Of a DNA stretch of 64,000 nucleotides, positions 7,501 through 63,264 are shown one piece after another. Each line of letters starts with the position of its first letter. Position 1 is the first letter of the stretch. Both the position numbers and the translations under genes were made by a program. Under the pieces are notes generated by a model. It ran no database searches, had not been told where the DNA came from, and saw only the letters and a program-made list of their open reading frames with translations. Source of the DNA: Trissonchulus latispiculum (taxonomy: Eukaryota > Nematoda > Enoplea > Enoplida > Ironidae); assembly GCA_030248195.1 (NCBI GenBank), contig JASAND010008569.1, positions 18,115 to 82,114 of the forward strand, in the 5' to 3' direction.

Positions 7501-10500
7501 CGCGATGGGGATTTTCATGGGGATTCCCCTGGAGAATCCCCCGGGGACACAACATTCGAAAGTTTTCCCAAAAATCTGCAGGGGATCCCCATGGGGCTTT
7601 TCATGGGAATTCTGTTCACACGATGGGGACAATCCCCTGGGGATTTACTATAGATAGCGTGTTGTCTATGCTTTGTTATTACTAATACAAACGGAGTTAC
7701 TGGATCCTCATAATTTGAGCAGTAATGATAACATCAATTAAAAATATTGTCATCATAAAAAATTATAAACAGTTTATATCAATTGGATTTAGCTCGTGAT
7801 AACTAAGGAAAAGCATATTTATAATTAGTCCATCGCTCAAATGATAGTTTTGAGAACGACTTTCTTTCTTTTTTGTTTAAAACAAATCATCAAACCTGTT
7901 AAATTTGATTTACTGTACCAATTTTTCTTGTTGCATACAATATATTATTTCATATTTAGTCAAAGTACATTTAAGACTGTCTTGGCAATAATGTCAGCTG
8001 ACTTTTGTTGCTTTCTGATTGGTTGATTCATGGGGATCCCCATAGAAAATTGCTCGGCGAGCAATCCGTCCCCATGGGGTTTTTCATGGGGATCCCCATG
8101 GCCCATGGGGAAATCCCCTGGGAAATCCCACGAAAATCCCCACCGTGTGAAATCGGCTTTAGAATAGCTATCTGTTGTGTTTAAGCTGCCACCTTATCAG
8201 TTTTTCAATACGCTGCGCGCAATCCGAGCAGTCGATGTTGTCTGGTTGTGGACTCGGGACATTCCTTCACCCATGTTATTCCTTACTTCAAGGGCCAGCC
8301 CATTAAAGAGGCAATGGTCAGGTACGTATGCCTTGCACTCCCACTGTCACTAGCATACATTTATCTCTGAAGTCACTTGATCTACTCTATCTTGGAAAGA
8401 AATCTTCCAGTATATGTATACTAGACCTGGACCAGAATCGTGTGGAGCCTGATCTAGGTTTTTAAAATTACCTTTTCGCAGTGGCGTAGGCAGTCAAATA
8501 TTTCGGGGGCGCATCCAAAAATTTTTAGCATCTGCCCTGATTTTTCAAATTTGTTATTCGCTTGTTTCAGGCTTTTTCGGATCACTTATTAATGCGTATA
8601 AGTTATGACAACTAAACATGTTGAAATTTTCAAAGGTACATGTATATACATAAATTTATGTAGCAGGTGCGCAAGGGTATGGGAGGCAGAGCCACCCAGA
8701 AGCTGGAAAAATTTTGTGAATTTGCAATAAATGTCAAAATTAAAATGTTTAAAAATATTATCAAATCGCATAAATAACGATTGTGCCATTTGGAATTCCT
8801 GTAAAAATTCGCTTACTGAAACTATTTTTGGAAACAATATCTACAAACTTGTTAGATCATAAATGCGAAATGTTCGATCTTTAACTAAAAGAGGGTTTGG
8901 GGGCGGTAGCGAGGGTTTGGGGGCGGTAGCCCCCAGCTAAAAGCCAGACCTTTTTAGAATATGACAGGATTGAAACCAATTTTTCACAGAAAGTTTTGTC
9001 AAAATTTCAGAAAATTTAGCCTTGACTTTTGATGTGCAAATACGTTTTTCCTGAGTTAGCTAATAAAATTTGTGCCCACCTCTCGAAAGTTTTTTAAAAT
9101 TACCCCCGACAAGGCAAACTTTCCGGTGTGCAAATTTGTTTCTTGGGGAATCCCCCCTCTCTTGCCTACTCCCCTGCCGTTTGGTTCTAGTTCTTAAAAA
9201 TTACCGTTTCGTTAGAACTAGGTATGTCTTGTTTTAGAGGAGAAACAGATAACTTTTAATTGTGAGCAAAGTAGGCATATAGACATAATTTATTTGCCTT
9301 TATTTCAGAATTGATGTCGGTGGGAAGGCCCTCACAAATCATATGAAGGAAATAATCTCCTACAGGTGCTAAATTATTAGTTTTCAGGACTGGATTGCGC
9401 CTTGATGGCTTAATCGGCGCTAATGGTTTTGCGGGGGCCTCAGATGATTTTGAGTCACAACTTATTCGTCAATTTTCGTGGTGTATTCTACAGCTGTCTT
9501 GGACTACCATCACATATAGAGCTTTAGCTTATCTTGCTAGATGTGTGTCGTTGCAGCGCGGTGTGGATTTGCAATTCTTGGTCCTTACAGTTCGGGGCTT
9601 AAATTTAAACTTAGGCTAAAGCTTAGTTTTTCCACACTCTTTATTTGGTCTCTCATCGTGGAAGCCAGTAAAAACGCGCAACGTTTCAGCATAGCTGTAT
9701 TCCCGCAGAAATACTTCCTTTGTATGTAAATAGATTACTTTGTTACATTTTTCATGTATCACCGTTTTAGACAGCTTCATGTACTGGACGAAACGTATGT
9801 GATAAATCAGTGTAAAGAGCTGGCTTGTTTTGTCTCACAAGATTTCATGGCAGACATGAAAAGGGCAAAACTTAAACGATCATGCAATGAGATTGTCAGA
9901 GACTATGTCCTGCCTGACTTTGTCAACGTTCATCGTGGCGTTCTGAGGGAACCGGGCGGTGGAAAACCGTTGGCTGCTGCAACAGAAACAGAACAGGTAT
10001 CCGTTGTCACTCCAGCTGTGTCATTATAATGTTTAGTCTGATGTGATACTGTCGGATTATCGGATCAACGCTGTTAAGGGGGGCTACGAACGGATTAGCC
10101 CGACATCGTCGGAGAGAGCTACTTCCCCCCCCCAACGTTAGCCAACATATCAAAGTAAAAAAGTTTAGGGTAGGCAACAATCTATCTCATATACACAGTT
10201 TTTGGCAGGACGCCAAAGTACAAAATTTGGTTCGAAAAATGGGATTTTTCAAAAAGGTATTTTCAGCTCTGGTGGATTAACGGTTTAACAAATTCTGAAA
10301 TTTTCAGCCATAATTGTTAACTGTTACTAGTACTAAATATTAAAAGTATTCCGGCTTTCGAGCATTGCTTCCTTCTTCAGCTATAGCAGCTCAAAGTTTG
10401 AAATTTGGCAACAAGTTACGATGTGACCGTGCGCTGTTTTCGATCTAATAAAATTGACAGCCCCTAGCCTAACTTGCTTTTTACCAAATATTAGCTTCTA

Positions 10501-13500
10501 ATAGGGACAAACTGTTTGTAAGTTTCGAGGGCTTTGGTTTTCTGGTTAGTGTGCTATCAATTTTTTGTTAAGAAATAAACCTTATTTTTAGGCCTGAGAA
10601 GCTAAGCGCAGTAAAATGGGGTCAAAAATTTTTTGTTTTCGATTTTGCCGAGAAGGTGCTTATAGGGGTTATTTTACCTGCTGAATCCTAATATGAAATC
10701 CGTTTTTCGATATGACGCTTCCTTCGTTCAGTATGCGCTTACAACTGTCTAGAGCTTTTTGGAGCGATCGCCATCCATACTTCGAGAAATCAATCTAGCA
10801 TTTCTGAGCATTTGGAGCGAAGTTTACTGACCTAGCTTTCTGCACATCTTGGTACACTCACTGGCCTGTAATGCGCAAAGTTTCAGCCGATTCTGCCATA
10901 GTACTTTGGAGTATTGACTCACATCTTCGAAATGGCACCAAATAACACCGACATTATCGATAATGTAATCTACCACTGCAAACGGGGGGATTAACGAAAT
11001 CACGTCATTTTTACAACAGTTAAGGCAGATACTTGGAGTAGTATTTGAAGCAAAGCGGGGTTCATTTGGTAAACCACAGCTCATTAGACGTTTGTTAACC
11101 TCCACCCGTATAGACCTACAGCGCCCAATTTTTCCCACTTTGATTGTATCTCACAGAAAAGTATACATTGATCTAAGGACTGTTTTGCACGATATCAAAG
11201 CGCTACGTATATGTCAAAACTATTTCTGGGAAATTTGGGTACCGTACCTTGCGCATAGCGATCAGGGCGAGTCGAAGTTTGAGTACGTGTCATGTCGAGC
11301 TTTGGACCCACAACACCAACTTCTGATGGCTCCACTGGACGCTACGCTGCATGGAATTATTTCAAACTTTAAACTATTTTACACTAAACCTAATACTATT
11401 ATGTGGTAAAAGACTAACTAGCTGTTCCAACATCGAACTTTTAGTGAAATTCGTAGCCCCCCTCCGCTTAATTTGCAATGGAGATCGGTGAAATTAGGAA
11501 GTTGGAGAAATTAATTTGCTTGCTGATTCAGCGCAATCCGTGTTCAACACTTTATTACTGCACCTTCATGCCGTTGTTTTGCTGAAGTGATCAGTAGGCA
11601 GTCTGCAGTTCCAGAATAATTAGCGGTCACGTCTAGATAATTATATAATATTTCAGGTAATTCGGTTGGGTAATGAACGTTTTACGGTTCCAGAAATATT
11701 GTTTCATCCTTCAGATATTGGCCTAAATCAGATGGGCATCAGTGAAGCCTTGCTGCATGTCACCAATGAATGCCCTTCTGGTTCGTGAAAGCCTTGATTG
11801 CAGATTTGCCGTTCAATTTGTTTGCTCTGTTCAATCAATGCGCTGTTCAATCTGTTTCTACCGTTAGTAACTGTATGCTGTTGTGTATACTAACCAGTTT
11901 TTTGCTCAAAAACCGCGTGTAATTATATCCACACCTTTTTCTGGAAAATAGCAAAAACGTTTGGCGAACGTTACCCCAAAATTTTGGACAAATTTTGCCA
12001 AATGGTTGGCACTTTTTCCAATTCGTATTCATTTGTTTCCACATATTTATCGTTGCTGGGGGGCTTTGCCCCCCCCCAGAACCCCCTTTTGCACGAATAT
12101 ATACTTTTTATTTTTGGGATTATTTAAGGATTAGTTACATATTATTATTGGTTACAGTTATAATTGTCCGTGCATGAACTAAAACACCAAAATGCACACT
12201 AAAAACGTTTCACCAAATATTTCAGTTTTTGAAGCAAAATTTGCTGGTTTCTTGCAAAGTTTTGTGCTACATGAGGCCTTTCGAAAGCACTGGCGCCTTC
12301 GGCACACTGCTGTTTTCCTTCGTTCTTTCTATCAAGTCAAACCCAATAAATGCAGGTCATCGTTGTAACTGCTCAATTTTTTAATTTTTTCGATCTGATT
12401 TGCTGAGACTTCTCCAAATTTTGCAGTAAATTAGAGTTTTAAGTTTCTTATAAAGAAGAGGCCTCTAAAGTACATCGGAATAATTTTGTTACCAATAAAA
12501 TTATATACATGTAATAAACAAAACGCGAGTAAATTAGGAATTTTTAGGTAATAGTTACACTTTTCTGAAAAATAGCAAAAACTTTGGGGTGGTGTGCAAC
12601 TTTACACGGCCACAAAAACACTGATACTAACTGTATGCTGCAACTGATCATAATAAAAATAAACAAAGTCGCTTGTAGATGTGTGCATTTGATAAAGGTT
12701 ATGAGAAAAGAAGGAAAGTTGTGTTCATTAAGAATTAGATAAACTAATTTGGCTCATGATACTCTAGTTGTTTTTTATGGTGGAAGAGTTAGCTCAATGT
12801 TGACGCCATTCTTAAGGTCGCACTTCCCTTACATTCAGTCCACTTTGGAAACCTATAACTTACTCAATATTGAGAGCTATGAATTGAGTGACATATCAAA
12901 ATGAAGCTCTACATCTTCTGCGTCGTTTGGTCTCATTGAAACGTGTCTACCTAGTTTGGAGTTTTCGCAAACTTACCAAACGCAGCCACAATTTTTGACC
13001 AAAATTTTTTCTGAAAAAATTTAAAGCAACAAGAAAATGGTCGTATCCAATGTGTTTAAGAGATAATTTGCCAGGGACGGTTTTTTGATTTTGTCAAAAT
13101 ATCATTTCAGTATGCAGAAATTGAGCATTTTCCGAAAATTTGGCATTTTTTCCAACTTTGAAAAATCATTGCTCTTGATTGGAGGCTGATAAAGAGAAAA
13201 ACAAAAAACCGCCCCGGGCAAATTGTCTAAACATACTGTGTGCAAAATATCTTTTAGATCCACCCATTGGTTTTGGAGCAATCTTCGGTCAAAAAATTTT
13301 GGCCGCAATTTGACGAAATCAGTTATTCGACCAGAACTTTAGACTCATTCCGTGTACAGGGCTCTAATTAACCTAATTTGTGCCTCTTTCGAAGCTCTTT
13401 CATTTGAGTATAAACTTGTCTACGCTTGTAGTGTACACTGGCTCCAATTCGACAAAACCTGTTTTCAGCAAGATCGTGTCAAAAATAACCAAATTGCGAG

Positions 13501-14280
13501 CAAAAATTGATCAAAAATTCACTGCTCAAAAACGATAAGAGCTAGAGACTTATGTCTAAAAGCAAACTTGTAGAGCACATAATAAGCTTTAAAATGATTA
13601 TAGTCGCTGGGAATAATTTTCTATATATAGTTCTAGAACTTCAAATTTCTGTTTCTCACTGTACATAAATGTTATGAAGCTCGCGTTTTTGCAGGACGTT
13701 TATTATCATTACCGATGTATTTTCTAAAAATTTGAATGAAATCGGGCAATAATTGCACTTTCTGTAACTATATCTGCACGTAAGGGGAGCACAACCTTAA
13801 GATATATACGCTTTGCCTTTTTTACGAGTTTTTATAATTTTTTAGTGCTTCAGCCACATTTGTTAAGCAACATTCTTCTAACGGGAGGCAGCTGCAGATT
13901 TTCCGGTTTTAATAGTCGCGTGTAAGTTTAAAGCGGAATGAATCTGATATATTTAGATAAAGCGCCTATTCCCTTGCAGTCTTATTCTAATTACTTTACC
14001 TGAGTAGTTAAGTTTTGATGAATGCCACCGGGGCCAAATTTTTGGGTGGGGAATTATACCAAAGATGTGCTTATGCTAAAAAAGTTGATTTACTCAGAAA
14101 CTTGTTTTTACCGAATCACAGCTAAGTTGTTTTAAAAACCTCAGGCTAAGCTTAAATTCGTTCTGACCTATATATTTGCCAGAGTAAAGTCGAGGATGCC
14201 ATGAGCATCCATTTTGGGGAACGGTGTTTATGCAGGCCAAGTAAAATAATCAAAAAGAGACTGGTATTAATGTCCCAATA

Positions 14281-14324
<44 letters not shown>

Positions 14325-15221
14325 CGTGCGCGCACGTACTTCTTTTGACACTTTACGCCCACATTTAATTCACAGCTGTGCTCGCTGCTGCTGTTGATGC
14401 TAAGGAATAAATCAAGATAGTGTGAAGCACTCGACGGGAAATTTGTATAGGTTCTGTTGACCTATGCCTGGATTTTTCTGTGCTTAAATTTTTTAGACTG
14501 AGTGATGTCAGAGCTTTGTCCAATGCATCTGTTGATGTGAATGTTACAATCTCTGAGAGGTTTGCAATTTGTTTGCAGTTAACAGGTTTCAGAAATCTAA
14601 ATTTGGTTTACGTTTGAACTTGGGATGCACCGGGGCTGCCCCTGGCTCCGGCATCGGTTGTCTGGTCTGTTGAGCTCCGCTGAGTCGTGAACTCAGCTAT
14701 CTTCATACGTTTTTACCCGATTTTTATGCCTGCTTAAACTTTTTAGACATTGAGCGACTTCGTGCCTCTAAGGTCCCGGCCCCAGAGAATCTCACCGAGG
14801 CCGTGTGCTAGCCCCGGCTCCGGTATTGGCGGCCCCGCTGCATCTCTAGTTAGAGCGGAAACATGTATTATTGTAAACTAAGTGAATAATATGTGTATAA
14901 ATTAAGCGTTAAGCGTGTAAAGGTTTAGCTGTATTGAGATATTGCAACCAGCAAGGACGTTTGCATCGCAGTGACTTGGAAGTTTCCCAAAAAATTGGCT
15001 GTTCAGGCCAGTTTGTTTACAATTTTTCATTTGAAAATTACATACATTACCATTGCGCATTCGTGTCTTATCGTATTATCCATTGTTTTAGTCCAGAATG
15101 TTATGCGTGGGAAGGAGGTCGTCTTTTAACGACTTCACCTTATTTTGATGACATGGTCGTGACAAGGAAGGAGTATCTGGAGCACGGGCATCGAATTTGT
15201 CAACAACGCTTTGTTATATAG
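4576..15221 (+). CDS. ARP6: Actin-related protein 6, C-terminal ~311 residues (8 exons; 5' exons outside the window)
   Basis: Exons: 4576-4699, 8186-8321, 9309-9365, 9771-9996, 11657-11780, 13846-13921, 14497-14559, 15092-15221. They total 936 nt, 312 codons including the stop, and every junction keeps frame. The product aligns end to end with animal ARP6 from about residue 86: THLVLTEPY, CCLVVDSGHSFTHVIPY (nucleotide-binding actin fold), RIDVGGKALTNHMKEIISYRQ, LDETYVINQCKE, DYVLPDF, LGNERFTVPEILFHPSDIG, LLTGGSCRFSGF and CYAWEGGRLL, ending QQRFVI. ARP6 is a nuclear subunit of the SWR1/SRCAP remodeller that exchanges histone H2A.Z. The first ~85 residues are missing and were not found between 1 and 4575, so they probably lie left of the window. 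Introns reach 3.5 kb and hold MITEs. The gene converges on the insulin-like gene. Confidence 0.95.
4852..5227. mobile_element. hAT-like MITE with GGATAT motifs (376 bp)
   Basis: The ends tagtgatgtgc...and ...gcccctcacta are imperfect inverted repeats of the TAGNG hAT type. The flanks gagaaaac (4844-4851) and gtaaaaac (5228-5235) match at 6 of 8 positions, a decayed 8-bp target duplication. Clusters of ggatat and atatccgg motifs lie inside both ends. It sits in the ARP6 intron after the 4576-4699 exon. Confidence 0.7.
5228..7489. other. ARP6 intron, no gene seen; diverged repeats
   Basis: No exon-like coding is visible. There are G- or C-run segments (5790-5870, 6050-6080, 6470-6490) and AT-rich sequence. 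The right edge, ccccccttaa at 7481-7490, resembles the end of a TTAA-type element (compare 10074), into which the next MITE has inserted. Confidence 0.5.
7490..8158. mobile_element. PIF/Harbinger-like MITE, ggggat family, copy 1
   Basis: Terminal repeats agccgacttcacgcgatggg and its near complement are flanked by the 3-bp duplication tta (7487-7489 and 8159-8161), the TWA target typical of PIF/Harbinger. Inside both ends are many ggggat/atcccc units, often as ggggatcccc palindromes. The centre is AT-rich without a transposase. The family's other copies, at 47983-48769 and 48904-49677, are much closer to each other than to this one. Confidence 0.88.
10078..11467. mobile_element. TTAA-flanked non-autonomous element (about 1.4 kb) in an ARP6 intron
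   Basis: TTAA at 10074-10077 precedes ggggggctacgaac. On the right, ttcgtagccccccttccgc-like sequence (actual ttcgtagcccccctccgc) ends at TTAA 11468-11471. The TTAA duplication fits piggyBac or Kolobok families. ORFs of about 105 codons inside have no recognisable transposase motif. Confidence 0.7.
12820..13790. repeat. Dispersed repeat shared with 23240-23640
   Basis: Long stretches match the later copy, for example the block around ttgaccaaaattttt, the block around gcagaaattgagcatttt, and gcaggacgtttat followed by ccgatgtattttct. The later copy is shorter. Ends are unclear, so this is a diverged non-autonomous element of unknown type within an ARP6 intron. Confidence 0.7.
14278..14324. repeat. 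(ATT)n microsatellite
   Basis: About 15 uninterrupted ATT units lie in the ARP6 intron before the 14497-14559 exon. Confidence 0.97.
14620..14848. mobile_element. hAT-like MITE (229 bp), GC-rich
   Basis: The ends ttgggatgcaccgggg and ccccgctgcatctcta are inverted repeats (complement tagagatgcagcgggg). Flanks gtttgaac and gttagagc match at 6 of 8 bases, a worn 8-bp duplication. Gccccggctccgg-type motifs sit near both ends. It lies in the last ARP6 intron, 60 nt after a splice donor. Confidence 0.7.
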
Positions 15222-16057: not shown

Positions 16058-16063
16058 TTTTAT
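16058..16063 (-). terminator. Possible polyadenylation signal of the insulin-like gene
   Basis: AATAAA on the minus strand lies about 260 nt beyond the stop codon of the insulin-like gene. Assigned by position only. Confidence 0.4.
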
Positions 16064-16320
16064 TTTTTCCTAAACTGGATTTCCAACCTGGTTTTGTTCA
16101 ACGATCAAACTTTTTCTCTTATGTACACCACAGACGAGACTACAAGAAAAGGTGACAGCAAAACGACGAAGTATAGTCATTCCGTAACAACTAGATTAAG
16201 TAGTGGCTTATGAAGTAGATAACAGCTGATGCCGGTTCTTTCTAAGCTTCTAGTGTCGAATGTGTGCTTTAGACAACAACAATGTGATAGTAGAAATTTT
16301 CAAAGCTAAATGAAAGAACA

Positions 16321-16424
16321 TTATGCATTGCTACAGCAATATGATTTCAGATATGAGTATGAGCACATCCCAATACAGCATTGTTCCACAATTCCTCGTT
16401 TGTTTTCATGAAAGATGGCAACGT
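16321..16424 (-). CDS. Insulin-like gene, exon 2: end of C peptide and A chain
   Basis: The acceptor is tttaatttcag|acgttgcc. The exon completes the split Asp codon (77), then reads VAIFHEN, KR, and an A chain starting GIVEQCC and ending SNA before TAA. The open frame continues 160 nt upstream of the acceptor, but that part has no family resemblance and is read as intron. Confidence 0.92.
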
Positions 16425-19400
16425 CTGAAATTAAAAATACAGCTTGTGAACGCAGGGGTAGTAGACAGCTGTGGGGTAGTACGGATGTACGCAGATTTGG
16501 TTTGAATAGAACTGGGTCAAGGTTGGTCAGTTTCAATTGGCTGGGGGTCGTTTTTCCGACGGTGTCGTGGAAAATTTGATTTCCCATAGTTAATCGATCG
16601 TTGGTAGAAGCATCCGATCTTGTTACTTTTCAACTAGAGTTGTGCTCGTGTATTTAGAAAATGCATACCTGCTACGCGCAATGGAAAGTGTACATTGTGT
16701 ACGCACACCACTTTAGAAAATGCACATCCTCTACGCGCTTTGAATCTGCACAGCGTGTACGTACGCGCAGAGTTGGAAGCGGGTCAAAAATCTTGACCCG
16801 CGGGTACCTTGGCCTCCGTGGCCCGCACCCGCGACCTGCTTTTATTTTGATGGGTCAATTCCAAATGTAACAAAATGGAGCGAACATTACACAAAATGGC
16901 TCAAAGCTTCCTATCAAACATTTCAAAAATTAATTTACTGCGAAAGAGACTCTGTTCCTGTTTTCATCAAAACTAGAAAGATACAAGATAATATAATAGA
17001 CAAAAGAAAGTTGTCACTACAGCATCACAGACCCGAAAAATTCGGGCCTGGAGTGGGGTTCGAACCCGCAACCTTCGGTTAACTACATAGACCGACGCTC
17101 TACCGATTGAGCCACCCAGGCTAGTGTTGTGCACCGGCCCAGTCTAGACCGGCCGAGAACAGGCCGGCCGGCCGGCCGGTGACAGGCCGGCCGGTCATAC
17201 ACAGGCCGGCCGGCCGGTGACAAGCTGGCCGGTCAAATGTGAAGCGACAGACCGGCCAGTGACAATTTCTGCAGCTTATCGAATTAAAATTGCTAAAATC
17301 TGCCTTGAAAACTATCAAAAATCTTAATTTTTATTTGTATTTTGGATAAGCCTGCGAAAATTTGCACCGGCCGGCCGGCCGGCTCTGGGCCGGCGGCCAC
17401 CGGCCGGCCGGCCCACGAAAAATTGGGCCGGTGAACAACACTAACCCAGGCACAATCGAACCAAGCTTAAGTTTGAATTCGTTCCCAAACTATAGTGATA
17501 CGTTTTTAAATAGGCATACAGCCATGCCAAAGACGCACACCCCGCGAGACAAGCTCAAGCTGGCAGCTGGTGCACGATGGCTGTAGAAAGATACAAGATA
17601 ATATAATAGACGAAAGAAAGAAAGTTAGAAAACTTGTTCCAAAATAAGCAAGAAAATTTGCCTGTTAAAACAACAAGGAAAATCCTCAACCCGCTGTGAC
17701 CCGCGGGTCAATGCGGGTCGGTTGGCTTGACCCGTGCCCAACCTGGCTCGACCCGACCCGCGGGTACCCACGACTCGCTTCTAACTCTGCGTACGAGCCT
17801 CATTTTATAGAGTGCACTGCGTGTGCGTCTAAGCATTTTACAATGCGCACATTTATGAATGCCTAGTCTCTCTATGAATTTTTAGTTTTATAGTCTGTGA
17901 GCTTTTCAAATTTCGACAAATGATGCATATTGCTTACTTTTTTGATTTCACCTTCCTCCAAGGGACCACCAACAATTAAAACAATTATTAATCAATTAAT
18001 TATTAAGAGAGGCTGCTTCAATCCAAAATAATTGGTTGCAGAATCACCTCGTTTATACACAAAATTTCGTATTTTCGCAAACAATGTTCAATTGTATGTT
18101 AAGGATAACTAAGAAGCTTTGGAGAAGTTTCTTTTGGTTAAAATCCTCAAAACTAGAAGAAACTAGAAGAACTAAAAATTGTTACATAGAACAAATGTAA
18201 ATTCGCAGGAATGGTTTATGCAACATCTTTAACATCATTACGAAGAGCATAAAATTACTGTATATAATAACTATATAAAATATTAAAATATTAAAGTATT
18301 ATATTATCAGAATATTAGAATACTGCTAAATATTGATATTTTATTGAAGTTTTACTGATGATATATATCTCAATTAAAAATAATATGTTTAAAGACGTTC
18401 GATAAAGATTAGAGTTAATGTTTGCTGTAGCAGAAAATGTGATAATAAAATTTTGATCTGCGTCTGAAATTGAAACTAAAAATCATCAATTAGCAGGCCT
18501 TAACCTGAACCTGAAGCTTAAGGTGGTGGTTTCTTTTGGGCACATACTGTTGGTTGGCGGCGTAAATCAAGATGAAATTTGACGGAACTTTCAGAAATAC
18601 GTTCTTTCATCGTTCTAACACCCTCCGCGCAATCCCGATTCAAAAATTCGAGATTTCCGGTCACAGCGGTTTTTCCCAATTTCTGAAAGTTTGGCAGCAG
18701 CTATACAGTTGAGTTATGACTATATTCATTCGAAAGATCTCATCGAGCTTCACATTTTTGCTTTTTGAAGTACCTCTCTAGCTTTTCGCTATCGTGAGAT
18801 ATAGTAGATTTTCCTATTTTGGCGTTGAAAACTTGTCGTTTTTGCAGAAATCAAGTAATCCGCAATTCTTGAGCTACGGAAGCCAACTACGGGTGTCAAT
18901 TTGAAGGTCTCATCGAGACCAATTATCCATGACATTATCATCTTCTAATTGCTACCCCGTACGCTGCTATCATAGAAAATGTAGTTTTTGCAAAAACATT
19001 ACTAAATTTTACCAGCGATTGTGGAGCATTACTACGCAAGCTAGATGGTTGCCACTTACTGGACGCGTTATACACGAAAATACCCAGGGACCCTTTTTTA
19101 GTTGTCCCGATTGCTGCTTTCTAGCTAAAGTGGTCGCTTGCCAAAGTTGGGAAAAGTAGGCAAAATCCAGGTTGCGCATACATTTTAGCTATTTTCTTTA
19201 TAACGAAGAGCGGTTTTATAATAACTAAAAAAGGGTCCCCAGCTATTTGATAGTGGAATCGAATGATGTGGCCGATGCCTCACGAAAAAATTTACTTTAG
19301 TCTGCAAAAAATCTGAAAAATTAAATTACTTCGAAAATGCAGTAAAATAATTTCCAAGAACTAAAGTTAGTTTCGTTGTATTCATTGGAAAGAGCAAATG

Positions 19401-21600
19401 TTAAGCTGCATTTTGATATAAAAATGGCTACTTAACTCCAAGTCATGGTTCAGTAATGATGATTCTAAGTTGATGTCTCCAAAGGGAATCACCACCTTAA
19501 AACAAATATATAGGGTATATATATATCCCTACTTTGGAAGAGATAAAATTCTAGGGTGTGCATAAAACACGGCCCCGGCCCCGGCCCCGGCCCCGGCCCG
19601 GTACATAAAACACGGCCCCGGCTCCGGCCCCGGCCCCGGTCCGGGTGCATAAAACACGGCCCCGGCCCCACATAAAACACGGCCCCATTGCGGCCCCGTG
19701 CATAAAACACGGCCCCGTTACGGCTCCATGCATAAAACACGGCCCCATCACGGCCCCATCAAAAATTATGTTTTTGACAACGGGAAATAAATATAACCGA
19801 TTCAGCATCTCCTAATCTAAAAAATGAATTATGTAAATGTTTAATTTTAGAGTTTGAAAAAATCGAAGTTAGAAATGAAAATATTTAATTTGAACCAGCT
19901 TTTTATTTTTGTATACTGGCAAACCTACAAATGACAAACTTTATGTGTAGAACGGTTTTTCGACTTTTGTAATTATTACGGAACCTAATGATAGAAATGT
20001 TTGGACACTAATTTAAAAAAAGGTAACAGTTTAAAATGAAATTTAATTTATAGTTACGAATTGCTTTCAATGAAATGCAGCGAGGCTTTAGTTGTGAAAA
20101 AGATCCATATAAACTACAATATGTATTTAAAAACATTTCATTTCAGAGCCACCAATTTAATTTTTTAAAATGTTACTTTTATTGGAGTCTAAACATTTCA
20201 GCCAGTATATATGTTTTATACTAGACACAAAAAACCGAAAAATTGTTCCACCCATAAAGTTTGTCATTATATATTAGGTTTAAACGTCTACCACATACAA
20301 AAATTAAAAAGCTGGTTCAAATAAAATATTTTCATTTATGACTTCGATTTTTTCAAACTCTAAAATTAAACATTTACAGAATTCATTTTTTAGATTAGGA
20401 GATGCTGAAACGGTTATATTTATATCCCGTTGTCCAAAACATAATTTTTGATGAGGCCGTGATGGGGCCGTGTTTTATGTATGGGGCCGTAACGGGGCCG
20501 TGTTTTATGCACGGGGCCGTAATGGGGCCGTGTTTTATGTGGGGCCGGGGCCGGGGCCGGGGCCGTGTTTTATGCACCCGGGCCGGGGCCGGGGCCGGAG
20601 CCGGGGCCGTGTTTTATGTACCGGGCCGGGGCCGGGGCCGGGCCGTGTTTTATGCACACCCAAATTCTATGAATCCGTTTCTGATGAGTTTTGTACAAAT
20701 GGATAGGTTGATACTTAATTTTGCATAATTATACTTTATAATGGTACTCAGCATAGACAAAATTTTCAGTCTTCTTTAGTGCGCACTGCGCATCGCCTAG
20801 TGTTTGAAGACGGCATGGGTTTGGTTGGGCAGACGGTAGGCCGGCAGGTGTCTAAAGTTAAGCGTCGAAGCAAAAAGCAAGGATTTTCCTGTGTTTCTAT
20901 GCATAGCAATTATCGATTAGGACAAAATAATAGAAAAAGTGATTCTGCAAAACATTTCCTTCATTCATTCTGGTTGAATCTGCTTGTTCCACAATAGAGC
21001 AAAATTAATAGTTTCTTTTCTTATTTATCCTTTCCCCTTTCCTACAATTTCAGCGCCAGGGCTGGACTACTTTACACATCTTAAATCATAACAACTAGGA
21101 AATGCTCGCAGATGACTGTTCAAACATGCTTTAGTAGAAGTCAATCTTCTCCCATAAAGTCTCGGAATCCCACAAGTTTTCATATAATCAGCGAAGTGTG
21201 CTTGCTCTTTTGTTGGGATGGTTTGCCCGACCATCCTCAAACACTATGTAAACAGATGTTACTGTTCAACACTGGTTACTAATCGTGTAAAGTTGATTTA
21301 CGTCAACGCCGTGAGGTGCTGAATGTATATATAATTAAAAATCCAGGAATTTAAAATTCAAATGCACTAACCTTCACTGGATAGGGTGCTTCGTTTATAT
21401 CGAAAGCAGTGATTGCAGACTTTAGAAAGTGTATGAATTAACCGTTTTCCACAGACTCGTATACTAGCTCTTTTTTCTAGAAAGGCTTCACCCATTTCCA
21501 TGTCGGATTGTCCCAGCATTTCCGCCAGTATTGGTCCCGTCATAAGCCATAAAAATAGAGCAAGGCATACTGGATGTGTGGCACCGACCAAAGGGTCCAT
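16321..21600 (-). CDS. Insulin-like prepropeptide, two exons, 110 residues, four predicted disulfides
   Basis: Exon 1 is 21600-21372 and exon 2 is 16424-16321; 333 nt join in frame at a phase-1 GT/AG intron of 4947 bp. Residues 1-26 look like a secretory signal (hydrophobic CLALFLWLMTGPILA). A short propeptide ends at KR 43-44. The B chain is 45-68 with CGKRLIHTLSKVC, the insulin CX11C spacing. KR 69-70, a 14-residue C peptide, and KR 85-86 follow. The A chain, 87-110, starts GIVEQCC and keeps the CCX3CX8C pattern. Extra cysteines at B +3 after the second B cysteine (residue 65) and next to the last A cysteine (107) predict a fourth disulfide; equivalent extra pairs are known in some nematode and mollusc peptides. 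The intron between B and A chains is usual for insulin genes. It should be secreted and act on an insulin-type receptor, as known for the family. No 5' UTR exon was located. Confidence 0.92.
17046..17121 (-). tRNA. tRNA-like sequence, probably a SINE head or pseudogene rather than a working tRNA
   Basis: It folds as a cloverleaf: acceptor GCCTGGG/TCCAGGC pairs fully (one GT), D stem GCTC/GAGC, anticodon stem TCGGT/ACCGA, T arm with GGTTCGAAC and one mismatch. The A box (tggctcaatcgg) and B box (gggttcgaacc) are intact. The anticodon loop is 11 nt, CTATGTAGTTA, not 7, so no anticodon can be assigned. Flanking direct repeats point to a retroposed copy. Confidence 0.55.
17122..17443. mobile_element. 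Inner hAT-like MITE with (CCGG) arrays (322 bp)
   Basis: Starts tagtgttgtgcaccggccc and ends gggccggtgaacaacacta. A perfect 8-bp duplication, acccaggc, flanks it (17114-17121 and 17444-17451). Runs of ggccggccgg lie just inside both ends. It interrupts the tRNA-related insertion. Confidence 0.93.
18522..19496. mobile_element. TTAA-flanked non-autonomous element, ggtggtg family, copy A
   Basis: TTAA (18518-18521) then ggtggtggtttcttttgg; on the right ccaaagggaatcaccacc then TTAA (19497-19500). A reverse-oriented, diverged copy lies at 54975-55960. Internal readings of 60-90 codons have no transposase motif. It is in the intron of the insulin-like gene. Confidence 0.8.
19554..20661. mobile_element. 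1.1-kb foldback element with (CCCCGG)n ends and perfect 8-bp target duplication
   Basis: It runs from gggtgtgcataaaacacggc to its complement. The flanking 8-mers aaattcta (19546-19553 and 20662-20669) are identical. The outer ~190 bp of each side alternate ccccgg runs with the unit gcataaaacacggccc. Pairing continues inward for several hundred bases, so almost the whole element is a hairpin. The 8-bp duplication suggests hAT mobilisation. Frames rich in Gly-Pro-Arg here are readings of the repeat. Confidence 0.93.
21372..21600 (-). CDS. Insulin-like gene, exon 1: signal peptide and B chain
   Basis: It encodes residues 1-76 and one extra base. The donor is gaag|gttagt. Just before the ATG the minus strand reads tctattctag, a good acceptor, so a 5' UTR intron is likely and this is probably the second transcribed exon. 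The B chain is bounded by KR on both sides. Confidence 0.9.
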
Positions 21601-47203: not shown

Positions 47204-47982
47204 TCAACGGAGCTATGGCAATCCTAAAACATTGTGCATTCTAAATCTAAAGAGCTGGGCTCTTCTCCCTCATTTTTAAGGCCCATCCTTTCCAGTTACT
47301 CTTCGCTGGCATAGCCCATCCGGAGTTGAGTGCAGGCTGCTGCAGACGTCCCGTATTATATATCTAAACTTTCTCAGCTCAGCTCAACACAGATCAGCTA
47401 TACAGATCAATTCATTTACTCATTCAGCTATGTGGTTAGATGTTAAGGAATTGGAATGGCATGACTGAGCTGTGCGACGACTGCAAGTGCAGTGAAGAAC
47501 GACTATGTAGGAATAAACAAGCAAAAGTTGTGTGCAAATGGGTTGATGCAAGCTGTGGAGTTTAACTTTTTAAAAGTTTTGTGCCGGCTACGCAGCAAAT
47601 TATATTACTGTGGTATTGTTGGCTATAAGGTTTGTAGTGGTCCCTGCTACATTAGTGGAGATGGTTGGGATACGAGTAAAAGTGAAAAACTAAGAGTATA
47701 AAAATTTCCGACTACATGTTGTGATCAGTATTATATTGTGAACTCGTCAAACTACAAGCTATTTCGGCTTTAAATAAATAAAGAAAAGAAAAGAAAGAAA
47801 GAATAGCGCCAAAGTGGCGGTTTTGTGAGGGTGTACGATTTCGTGGTATTGTACTGTTAACGTTTTCCTTCTGAGTGGTGAGTGAAACTGTCTCCAACGA
47901 AGGAATTCGAAGCTTAAATGCTACAGCCGGATGGGATTAGAGACCTCAGACGGAAGTGACTGACGAATCTTGGAGCGATGAA

Positions 47983-48769
47983 AGCCGATTTCACACGATG
48001 GGGATTTCTGTGGGGATTCCCCTGGGGATTTCCCCGGGGACACAACATTGGAAAGTTTTTCCAAAAATCCCCAGGGGATCCCCATGGGGTCTTTTCATGG
48101 GGATTCTATTCACACGATGGGAACAATCCCCAGGGGATGCTTGCTATAGATAACGTGTTGTTTCTAATTTTTTATTACTAACACGAACGAATGGAAATGC
48201 TGTTTTTCAACAATTTAAATAACAATAATACCAATTCGAAATATGATCATCTGAAGACAAAAATTATAAACAAAAAATACTTTCTATCAACTGGATTTAA
48301 ATGTAAAAATTAGTCATAATAATTTAATCTGGATTTAATTAATTAATTAGTTAGCTAATTTAATTCATCGTTATGATTTTTTCTCAAGACTGTTTAATTA
48401 TAATAATGTTTTCGCTTTTCCTTGTTCTAACAACTCAACAAACCTGTGAAATTGTTGGCACAATATCAATTTTGCTTGTTACATATGCAATATTATTTCA
48501 CATTTTGTTATAATGCGTTTGAGTCTGTTTTGCCTACAATGTCAGCTGATTTTGCTGCTCTCTGATTGGTCGTTTCATGGGGATCCCCATAGAAAATTGC
48601 TCGGCGAGCAATTTGTCCCCATGGGAATTTTCACGGGGATCCCCACAAAAATCCCCATAGAAATCCCCATGGGGCGTCCCTATGGGGATAGGTGGGGTCC
48701 CCATGGGGATCCTCATGGGGAAATCCCCTGGGGAATCCCCACAAAAATCCCCATCGTGTGAAATCGGCT
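47983..48769. mobile_element. PIF/Harbinger-like MITE, ggggat family, copy 2
   Basis: Terminal repeat agccgatttcacacgatggg, with gaa on both sides (47980-47982 and 48770-48772). Its inner sequence is the reverse complement of copy 3 almost base for base; over 48513-48761 the translated sequences are identical. ggggatcccc-type palindromes fill both ends. Confidence 0.92.
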
Positions 48770-48903
48770 GAATAGTGGTTTTCGCTAGAAACGAGGATAC
48801 CGGCCGGGCCCGCGGGCCGGGCAGATAAATTTACGGGTCGTTGCGGGTCGAAAGAGGTCGGATCGACTCTAAGGGCCTTCCGTGCAACGAGATAAACGAG
48901 TTA

Positions 48904-49677
48904 AGCCGATTTCACACGATGGGGATTTTTGTGGGGATTCCCCAGGGGATTTCCCCATGGGGATCCCCATGGGGACCCCACCTATCCCCATAGGGACGCC
49001 CCATGGGGATTTCTATGGGGATTTTTGTGGGGATCCCCGTGAAAATTCCCATGGGGACAAATTGCTCGCCGAGCAATTTTCTATGGGGATCCCCATGAAA
49101 CGACCAATCAGAGAGCAGCAAAATCAGCTGACATTGTAGGCAAAACAGACTCAAACGCATTATAACAAAATGTGAAATAATATTGCATATGTAACAAGCA
49201 AAATTGATATTGTGCCAACAATTTCACAGGTTTGTTGAGTTGTTAGAACAAGGAAAAGCGAAAACATTATTATAATTAAACAGTCTTGAGAAAAAATCAT
49301 AACGATGAATTAAATTAGCTAACTAATTAATTAATTAAATCCAGATTAAATTATTATGACTAATTTTTACATTTAAATCCAGTTGATAGAGAGTATTTTT
49401 TGTTTATAATTTTTGTCTTCAGATGATCATATTTCGAATTGGTATTATTGTTATTTAAATTGTTGAAAAACAGCATTTCCATTCGTTCGTGTTAGTAATA
49501 AAAAATTAGAAACAACACGTTATCCCCTGGGGATTGTTCCCATCGTGTGAATAGAATCCCCATGAAAAGACCCCATGGGGATCCCCTGGGGATTTTTGGA
49601 AAAACTTTCCAATGTTGTGTCCCCGGGGAAATCCCCAGGGGAATCCCCACAGAAATCCCCATCGTGTGAAATCGGCT
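48904..49677. mobile_element. PIF/Harbinger-like MITE, ggggat family, copy 3 (inverted relative to copy 2)
   Basis: Same terminal repeat, flanked by tta on both sides (48901-48903 and 49678-49680). Only a 134-bp spacer separates it from copy 2, so the pair makes a 1.7-kb near-palindrome. It lacks about a dozen bases present in copy 2 near the outer arm. Confidence 0.92.
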
Positions 49678-50339
49678 TTATAGGAGTTAAAATTAAGTCT
49701 ATCCTTTTCACACACAGGGTTAAAAGAGTGAAACAGTTCATTTTAACTCGTTTGCAGAGTTAAACGAGTTAAAAATTTTAACTACTCTTTTGAACTCGCG
49801 CCGAAAAGGCCCTAAGAAAATGTTTTGAATACAGTGCCTACAACATTGGCTGCATCGTCAAATAAAAATTAATTTTAAGCTATGCTAAATATGCTAACTA
49901 CGATTAGCTGGAGGCTTTGTTTCGGTTTTAGCTACTGCGGAGGATTCGAGAAATAAATCACGCCACGGCGTATTTTTAAATTTCAAAATATTTATTTAAT
50001 AAAACTCACTGTGTCTTCTGTGACAGATTCTGGATTCTTGGATTCTTCGAAAACCCAAAGGGATATTTTCATCAAATTTACTTCTTCCATGGTGCTTCTT
50101 ATTTACTTAGTGCTTCCAATTTACTTCTTCCACAGTGCAGCACTAATCGTTACTTCTGGGAAATAAATATATATATACCAGGTCGTGTATTGAAGATAGG
50201 AGAAATATCGTAGCATAACGATGGCGTACATGCATTTCATACAACAACACAGGGGAACTTATTCCGCTTCAGCGGAATAAAAAGAGAAATCAATAGAATA
50301 ATTTACTCGCTTAATACGATCAACTGAGCACGATGAAAG

Positions 50340-51247
50340 TTTTGCCAAGTTGAAGACAGCCTTGACTTCATTAGCGGTACTCACACACTTCGACGAAAGC
50401 TTACCGATCTGGTTGGCCTATGATGCTTCCACAGTGGGTGTCGGCTGTCATTTCGCATATCTGCAAGGATGGTTCTGAAAAACCAATAGCATTCGCTTCG
50501 AAGACTTTGTCCAAGAGCGAAAAGAACTATTCCCAGATTGACAAAGAAGCACTTGCTATCGTCTATGGAGTTCGAAAATTCCATCAGTATCTTTACGGTC
50601 GCCGTTTCGAGCTGATCACCGACCACAAGCCCTTAACAACTCTGTTTGGTGAACACAAGGGCATATCCAGCATTGGTGCTGCCCGAATCCAAAGATGGGC
50701 GTTGTTGCTTATGGGATACAGTTCGCGATACATTATCCCAGGGCAAAAAGTATGGTTTAAAGACTATTCGGGAAAAGAGGCAACCTGGGCTCAGGGCTTG
50801 GTGGTGCGTCGTACGGGTCCTGTTAGCTATGAGATTAACATTGATGGCAAGATCCGACGCCGACATGTAGATCAAATCTTGGGCGTTTGCACAAGCTCAA
50901 CGGTCCATGCCTTCTTGGTTAACTGTCCCTTCTAGACCCCTCATCCGGGCGGAACCAGCATCACTCCCTCCCGCTGCGGAAAACCAGCAAGCTATTCCTG
51001 GGCCGGTTGCCAGGCCTGCTCGCCGCCGCCTGCGTCCAATGCAGTTTATACCCGGTCGCGGCAGGGATGCCTTTGTAATAACGCGGAATAACTATGTTCA
51101 AGAAGAGGGAAAAAATGTGATGTATGAAAATAATAAAATGTCTTAAAAATATCTATAGTTTTGAACTGCTACTTTGAGTTGATGTAGTATTGTTTTGGAT
51201 TGAAACAGTCTTTTGTCCAGTGTCTTCTAAAACCTCAGAACACAACA
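50340..51247 (+). mobile_element. Ty3/gypsy retrotransposon relic: RNase H fused to integrase C-terminus, plus probable LTR
   Basis: 50342-50436 encodes the end of the reverse transcriptase/start of RNase H (FAKLKTALTSL, LAYDASTVGVG). A 2-nt loss shifts frame; 50435-50740 continues RNase H with KEALAIVYGVRKFHQYLYGR and TDHKPLTTLFG. Near 50742 the frame passes straight into an integrase C-terminal module (GQKVWFKDY, VVRRTGPVSYEI, RRRHVDQI), so the end of RNase H and most of integrase are deleted. A Pro/Arg-rich tail continues in another frame to about 51080. Then gaagagggaaaaaa looks like a polypurine tract, and tgtgatg...cacaaca (51117-51247) a short LTR. No 5' part was found. Confidence 0.85.

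Positions 51248-52959: not shown

Positions 52960-63264
<10,305 letters not shown>

Follow-up and report, generated by a model that had tools for sequence, protein, structure and literature searches.

The 64,000-nucleotide stretch of Trissonchulus latispiculum DNA analysed here, referred to below as the window, carries an insulin-like gene on the minus strand, flanked by plus-strand genes for actin-related protein 6 (ACTR6, or ARP6) and phenylalanine hydroxylase (PAH). The ACTR6 gene is represented by its 3' part at 8198..15221 (the start at 8198 is approximate), with exons at 8198-8321, 9309-9365, 9771-9996, 11657-11780, 13846-13921, 14497-14559, and 15092-15221, and it scores 314.8 bits against Actin-related protein 6 (6igm) versus 120 against the best actin. 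The PAH gene spans 52960..63264 and consists of 12 exons encoding 466 amino acids in an open frame, with all internal borders of the GT/AG type. The three genes follow one another in the order ACTR6(+), insulin(-), PAH(+) within about 55 kb; the 3' end of ACTR6 lies 1.1 kb from the insulin stop codon, and the PAH start is located 31.4 kb from the insulin start.

The insulin-like gene is composed of two exons. Exon 1 (21600-21372, 229 nt) encodes residues 1-76 and the first base of codon 77 (229 = 76 x 3 + 1), and exon 2 (16424-16321, 104 nt) contains the remainder of codon 77, the codons up to residue 110, and the stop codon TAA. They are separated by a phase-1 intron of 4947 nt (16425..21371), which falls within the C-peptide and has GT/AG borders, with AAG/GTTAGT at the donor and TTTCAG/ACG at the acceptor. 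When spliced in silico, the exons give an open frame of 110 codons followed by TAA. A first-pass annotation of this DNA had described two minus-strand exons 4.9 kb apart, joined at a phase-1 GT/AG intron into 110 codons, and all of its coordinates proved correct. Judging from the sequence, both exons are probably spliced together in vivo as well. An AATAAA polyadenylation-like signal is present on the minus strand at 16059..16064, 259 nt 3' of the stop codon. At the insulin start (21600, minus strand), the sequence TCTATTCTAG followed by ATG resembles a splice or trans-splice acceptor, and an in-frame TAG stands right before the ATG; an intron in the 5' UTR, or else a trans-splice site, may end immediately upstream of this codon. 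The C. elegans SL1 leader sequence had 0 matches in the window with up to 3 mismatches allowed. The phase of the vertebrate insulin intron is similar to the phase 1 seen here. Both C. elegans and human are reported to conserve an intron that separates the B-peptide from the A-peptide (PMC3493385).

Two further elements are located inside the insulin intron. A fold-back element with CGGCCC-type repeats occupies 19573-20642; its arms of 254 and 90 nt are 95 and 99% complementary, and the 254-nt arms lie at 19657-19910/20300-20553. A tRNA-like gene, called as His with the anticodon ATG, is found at 17044-17121 on the minus strand and may be a tRNA-derived repeat.

The joined translation contains the landmarks of a preproinsulin that had been listed in the first-pass annotation, namely a signal peptide, the superfamily motifs CX11C in the B chain and CCX3CX8C in the A chain, a C-peptide, the GIVEQCC start, and KR borders. 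The signal peptide (21523..21600, minus strand, as for all parts of the precursor; residues 1-26) was delimited by hydrophobicity, which peaks at 2.2 over residues 11-22 in a 12-residue window, and its cleavage site is a predicted one. It would be followed by an F-peptide-like propeptide of 16 residues (27-42; 21475..21522), probably released at KR 43-44 (21474-21469). The B chain comprises residues 45-68 (21397..21468), with Cys 50 and 62 and an extra Cys 65 (codon 21408-21406). The C-peptide is divided between the exons, with residues 71-76 (21373..21390) in exon 1 and residues 77-84 in exon 2, where it runs up to 16402; it is bounded by KR 69-70 (21396-21391) and KR 85-86 (16401-16396). The A chain, residues 87-110 (16324..16395), is characterized by the pattern CC-X3-C-X8-CC, including an extra Cys 107 (codon 16335-16333). 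The precursor has cysteines at positions 12 (in the signal peptide), 50, 62, 65, 92, 93, 97, 106, and 107, and its chains carry eight of them.

The KR pairs announced at the cleavage points are indeed found at 43-44, 69-70, and 85-86, but a fourth one, at residues 52-53 inside the B chain and right after its first cysteine, had gone unmentioned; it must escape cleavage if the chain model holds. Similarly, the division into signal peptide, B, C, and A parts was borne out, although the predicted 16-residue F-peptide-like segment had not been separated from them. The order of the precursor appears to be F-B-C-A, and the predicted use of KR 43-44 is supported by the fact that the B chain would then begin with ASIR, like that of INS-1. 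The 40 C. elegans insulins are described as B-C-A (INS-1 and INS-18), F-B-A (INS-2 to INS-9 and DAF-28), and B-A precursors, and INS-1 as a B-C-A precursor with KR at both junctions that is processed by EGL-3, a PC2 homologue (PMC3978837). In sequence, the window precursor agrees with the B-C-A (alpha) group in having KR, as predicted cleavage sites, at both ends of its C-peptide. It departs from the F-B-A (beta) processing group, as an F-like segment is present, yet a KR-bounded C-peptide is present too.

The cysteine motifs are not decisive by themselves, given their chance rates: in 100 Markov shuffles of the window, 0.1 occurrences of the A-chain motif CCx3Cx8C were expected per shuffled window versus 1 found in six frames, and 2.24 of CGx10C versus 3 found. 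A second canonical A-chain motif is absent from the six frames of the window, where an insulin gene of diverged sequence or with another exon division may still be present. Two checks proposed in the first-pass annotation, a search with the insulin-family profile and a comparison with the peptides of related species, were carried out. Against the Pfam family Insulin (PF00049), the joined protein scored 37 bits (E 7.1e-9; cut-off 23), and against Ins_beta (PF03488) 26 bits (E 9.5e-6; cut-off 21); with both values above cut-off, the claim of an insulin-family hormone gene is upheld. C. elegans INS-1 is likewise above cut-off for both families. The exon 2 ORF by itself matched Insulin with E 1.5e-7, being the sole Insulin match among 273 ORFs scanned, and the exon 1 ORF by itself matched only Ins_beta, under the cut-off (E 0.0074). 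The scan covered 273 of the 335 ORFs that have at least 55 amino acids and start after base 864; of the other 62, which comprised repeats of low complexity, frames that overlapped or recurred, PAH exons, and the exon 1 ORF of the insulin gene, a few were scanned separately. An NCBIfam search gave no insulin match, and when the 110-residue protein was used by itself to look for homologues, one candidate came back and none was scored. Neither the insulin protein nor the window PAH had an identical match among the protein matches listed, so the genome may simply be without deposited annotation at these loci.

Relatives were collected with a profile of three rows, namely the window protein, a stretch of C. 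elegans INS-1, and INS-6, which matched 12 proteins of 33 candidates, 11 of them with a B chain. Six Caenorhabditis proteins and one from Diploscapter, all INS-1 or INS-1-like, make up the top 7 of the 12, a ranking that is biased because INS-1 was part of the query. The best match, P0121, comes from C. elegans and agrees in sequence with INS-1; its database name is INSL5, and its C. briggsae counterpart is named CBR-INS-1. Pairwise comparison over 38 core residues is less biased, and it gave 24 identities with the C. bovis protein, 22 with INS-1 of C. elegans and of C. briggsae, 20 with Diploscapter, 19 with the metagenome protein P0129, 18 with human insulin, 17 with IGF-II, 16 with INS-6, and 13 with a C. 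remanei protein; of 2000 cysteine-preserving shuffles, 0 reached any of these nine scores. Among the nine sequences compared, the Caenorhabditis INS-1 proteins are the closest (22-24 of 38 in three species), although the relatives had been fetched with a profile that included INS-1, and the window protein is the one insulin of this genome that the comparison covers. The likeness to vertebrate preproinsulin stressed in the first-pass annotation is most marked where the A chain begins, but over the core the protein is somewhat closer to C. elegans INS-1 than to the human hormone (22 versus 18 of 38). The B chain shares 11 of 17 residues with INS-1 versus 6 of 17 with human insulin, and the A chain 12 of 21 with human insulin versus 11 of 21 with C. 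elegans INS-1, which makes the B chain look nematode-like and leaves the A chain undecided.

P0121 and its Caenorhabditis and Diploscapter kin resemble the window protein in their B-C-A arrangement with KR after B and before A, in eight chain cysteines with CC-X3-C-X8-CC in the A chain, in matching both Pfam families, and, in several of them, in a B chain starting with (A)SIR-x-CG, which in INS-1 is (A)SIRLCG. In contrast, P0121 has no KR ahead of its B chain, which apparently follows the signal peptide directly, its third B cysteine is at X4, and its A chain begins with GGIATECC. C. elegans INS-6 (2kji; 'beta-type 5') has eight cysteines and the same A-chain motif, and its group is described as having an F-peptide (PMC3978837), but it is without a C-peptide, has X3 spacing, and shows lower core identity (16 of 38). 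Vertebrate preproinsulin shares the B-C-A order with dibasic sites, GIVEQCC, and an intron between the B and A parts; however, it has six cysteines, compared with eight in the window chains, and no F-peptide. The insulin family is ordinary for a nematode, whereas the precursor layout and the cysteine spacing are unusual.

The spacing in question concerns Cys65, which follows the second B cysteine at X2; among the 11 relatives with a B chain, the spacing is X4 in 9, X3 in 2, and X2 in 0. The trait of the INS-1 group, X4, with the third B cysteine five residues past the second, is thus replaced here by X2, which in human numbering places the extra pair at B22 and A21. The last A-chain cysteine occupies the same alignment column in the window protein, INS-1, and INS-6. 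With eight cysteines and the A motif CC-3X-C-8X-CC, the window chains have the features of nematode type-beta insulins, which are described with eight cysteines and with this motif among the A motifs searched, and which include INS-1, INS-6, DAF-28, and snail MIP-1 as members and the Strongyloides type-beta Ss-ILP-4 with a predicted cleaved C-peptide (PMC3493385). The extra pair formed by Cys65 and Cys107 was therefore correctly placed at the B22 and A21 positions by the first-pass annotation, but it belongs to an already known class (PMC3493385), and since molluscan insulins also have an additional A-B bond (PMC6372279), it is not of a novel kind.

Cys107 and Cys65 would form a fourth disulfide, A21-B22. 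Engineered human insulins with four disulfides reportedly come from Xiong et al. 2020, and we take 6tyh to be a crystal structure of one of them; its B chain appears at E 0.75 in a PDB search with the window B chain alone, where the top matches were ribosomal L37e at E 0.2. Fourth bonds were introduced synthetically at A21-B22, A22-B22, A22-B23, and A22-B21, in analogues whose A chain had been extended and whose B chain had been shortened to 22 residues, and only A22-B22 kept activity (PMC12567236). These molecules are similar to the window product in having a fourth A-B bond near the C-terminal end of both chains, in one case exactly A21-B22, and differ from it in being synthetic, with the A chain lengthened and the B chain shortened, for which reason the inactivity of the A21-B22 analogue may not carry over. 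The window gene represents a natural test of a disulfide that was engineered into the human insulin scaffold and found there to be without activity.

We consider it highly probable that this gene encodes an INS-1-type nematode insulin with the overall mode of action outlined here, a judgement that does not extend to antagonism; strict INS-1 orthology is not proved, given the X2 spacing of Cys65 and an A chain with 12 of 21 residues shared with human insulin versus 11 of 21 with INS-1. The signal peptide would direct the precursor to secretion, and a convertase of the PC2 type would cleave it at the three KR sites, with removal of the F-peptide and the C-peptide. The mature hormone would be a two-chain B-A peptide with three canonical disulfides and the predicted A21-B22 bond as a fourth, and it could serve as a neuroendocrine ligand of a putative receptor tyrosine kinase of the insulin type (DAF-2 in C. 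elegans). Since C. elegans INS-1 acts as an antagonist (PMC3978837) and the A21-B22 human analogue is inactive, we lean slightly towards an antagonist or weak agonist, as a leading guess and not a result.

Alternatively, the product could activate the receptor, as a type-beta agonist like DAF-28 and INS-6 (F-B-A class) in which a C-peptide has been retained. The F-peptide-like segment closed by KR, as in part of the F-B-A group (PMC3978837), and the match to the Ins_beta profile are consistent with such an agonist, but it is unlikely, as the core is less similar to INS-6 than to C. elegans INS-1 (16 versus 22 of 38), the F-B-A group as described is without a C-peptide (PMC3978837), and among the four human analogues it was A22-B22, not A21-B22, that was active (PMC12567236). 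It is still less probable that the gene is a direct descendant of an ancestral bilaterian insulin, equidistant to vertebrate insulin and INS-1, with an extra pair that arose independently of that in INS-1. Its GIVEQCC start, KR-bounded C-peptide, and intron within the C-peptide would fit such a descent, as would the X2 spacing of the third B cysteine as opposed to X4/X3. In PDB searches, IGF-II and insulins (E 2e-6 with the whole protein) also outrank INS-6 (E 0.072), which is the only nematode insulin in the PDB, and INS-6 again fell behind them when trimmed chains were used. However, the B chain sides with INS-1 (11 versus 6 of 17), and with the last A cysteine in one column in INS-1 and INS-6, a single gain is the simpler account. 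A decayed or untranscribed copy, to which the large fold-back element in the intron might point, is very improbable in view of the open frame, consensus splice borders, full set of cysteines, three chain-border KR sites, and plausible AATAAA.

The neighbouring hydroxylase was ranked against PDB sequences at 604.6 bits for PAH, 500.4 for TPH, and 483.2 for TH; with PAH first, TH and TPH were rejected. Phylogenetic trees were built with rows from the best 120 of 7978 matches: a 103-row tree (118 rows after a length filter, minus 15 near-duplicate or partial ones) and a second tree of 54 selected rows. In the latter, the window PAH is found with 16 nematodes and 7 further proteins, and a branch with 100/100 support separates them from the 30 rows that belong to other animals; the 103-row tree is concordant (SH-aLRT 100). 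A vertebrate, mollusc, or cnidarian affinity was rejected, as the window PAH is on the nematode side of the 100/100 branch. It lies outside a 13-row group of Caenorhabditis, Strongyloides, Anisakis, and Meloidogyne, and its nearest proteins by path are those of the sources lgn and jgi. This position points to a nematode beyond that group or to a very close relative, for which a nematomorph would also qualify. Constraining it to the 16 nematodes without the 7 further proteins gave a p-AU of 0.0738, and this grouping is neither rejected nor demonstrated.

In human, ACTR6, IGF1, and PAH are located on 12q23 in a region of about 3 Mb, and the insulin, hydroxylase, and ACTR6 genes of C. elegans are not known to be neighbours. 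The dating of insulin/hydroxylase linkage to early chordates reportedly goes back to papers of 1998 and 2010, and a 2006 study is said to have addressed insulin-relaxin synteny in Ciona. This dating is found in a source that also places PAH and IGF1 in one paralogy group (PMC11222543), and Actr6 and Igf1 are reported to share mouse chromosome 10 (PMC4331513). The main text of a survey of insulin gene locations in many animals is without the word hydroxylase (PMC8805411), and the available parts of the open-licence papers among the matches listed contain no report of insulin/hydroxylase/ACTR6 linkage outside chordates. The vertebrate TH-INS-IGF2 and PAH-IGF1 groups are similar to the window in that they, too, combine an insulin-family gene with a linked gene for an aromatic amino acid hydroxylase, and unlike it in that here the genome is that of a nematode, 31 kb separate the start codons, and ACTR6 lies on the other side. 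With its nematode insulin gene flanked by a hydroxylase and by ACTR6, the window suggests that the linkage predates chordates, or else it is coincidental.

Coincidental proximity of the three genes in this genome has not far short of an even chance. The linkage is seen in a single genome and was noticed post hoc, ACTR6 included, and nematode genomes are much rearranged, which also counts for coincidence. If a genome has 15,000 genes, of which three code for hydroxylases and 7-40 for insulins, the chance that a hydroxylase gene is no more than two genes away from any insulin gene can be roughly estimated at 0.5-3%. Against coincidence, both genes flanking this insulin gene are linked to IGF1 in mammals, namely Actr6 (PMC4331513) and PAH (PMC11222543). 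More tentatively, and at somewhat less than even chance, the ACTR6-insulin-hydroxylase block could have been inherited from the bilaterian ancestor, with TH-INS-IGF2 and PAH-IGF1 as its remnants, and an F-B-C-A precursor with a natural A21-B22 bond could have been ancestral to the B-C-A and F-B-A forms, which would have arisen by loss. The locus provides a concrete case for checking the early-chordate dating of insulin/hydroxylase linkage in other animals.

Other elements were noted elsewhere in the window. A tandem repeat at 8-864 consists of 5.9 copies of a 145-bp unit with 93% matches. A large inverted repeat at 47981-49679, with arms of 624 and 158 nt that are 100% complementary, is perhaps a young fold-back element, and a retrotransposon fragment at 50375-50932 on the plus strand contains the RNase H-like domain of a reverse transcriptase and is probably of the Gypsy/Ty3 type.
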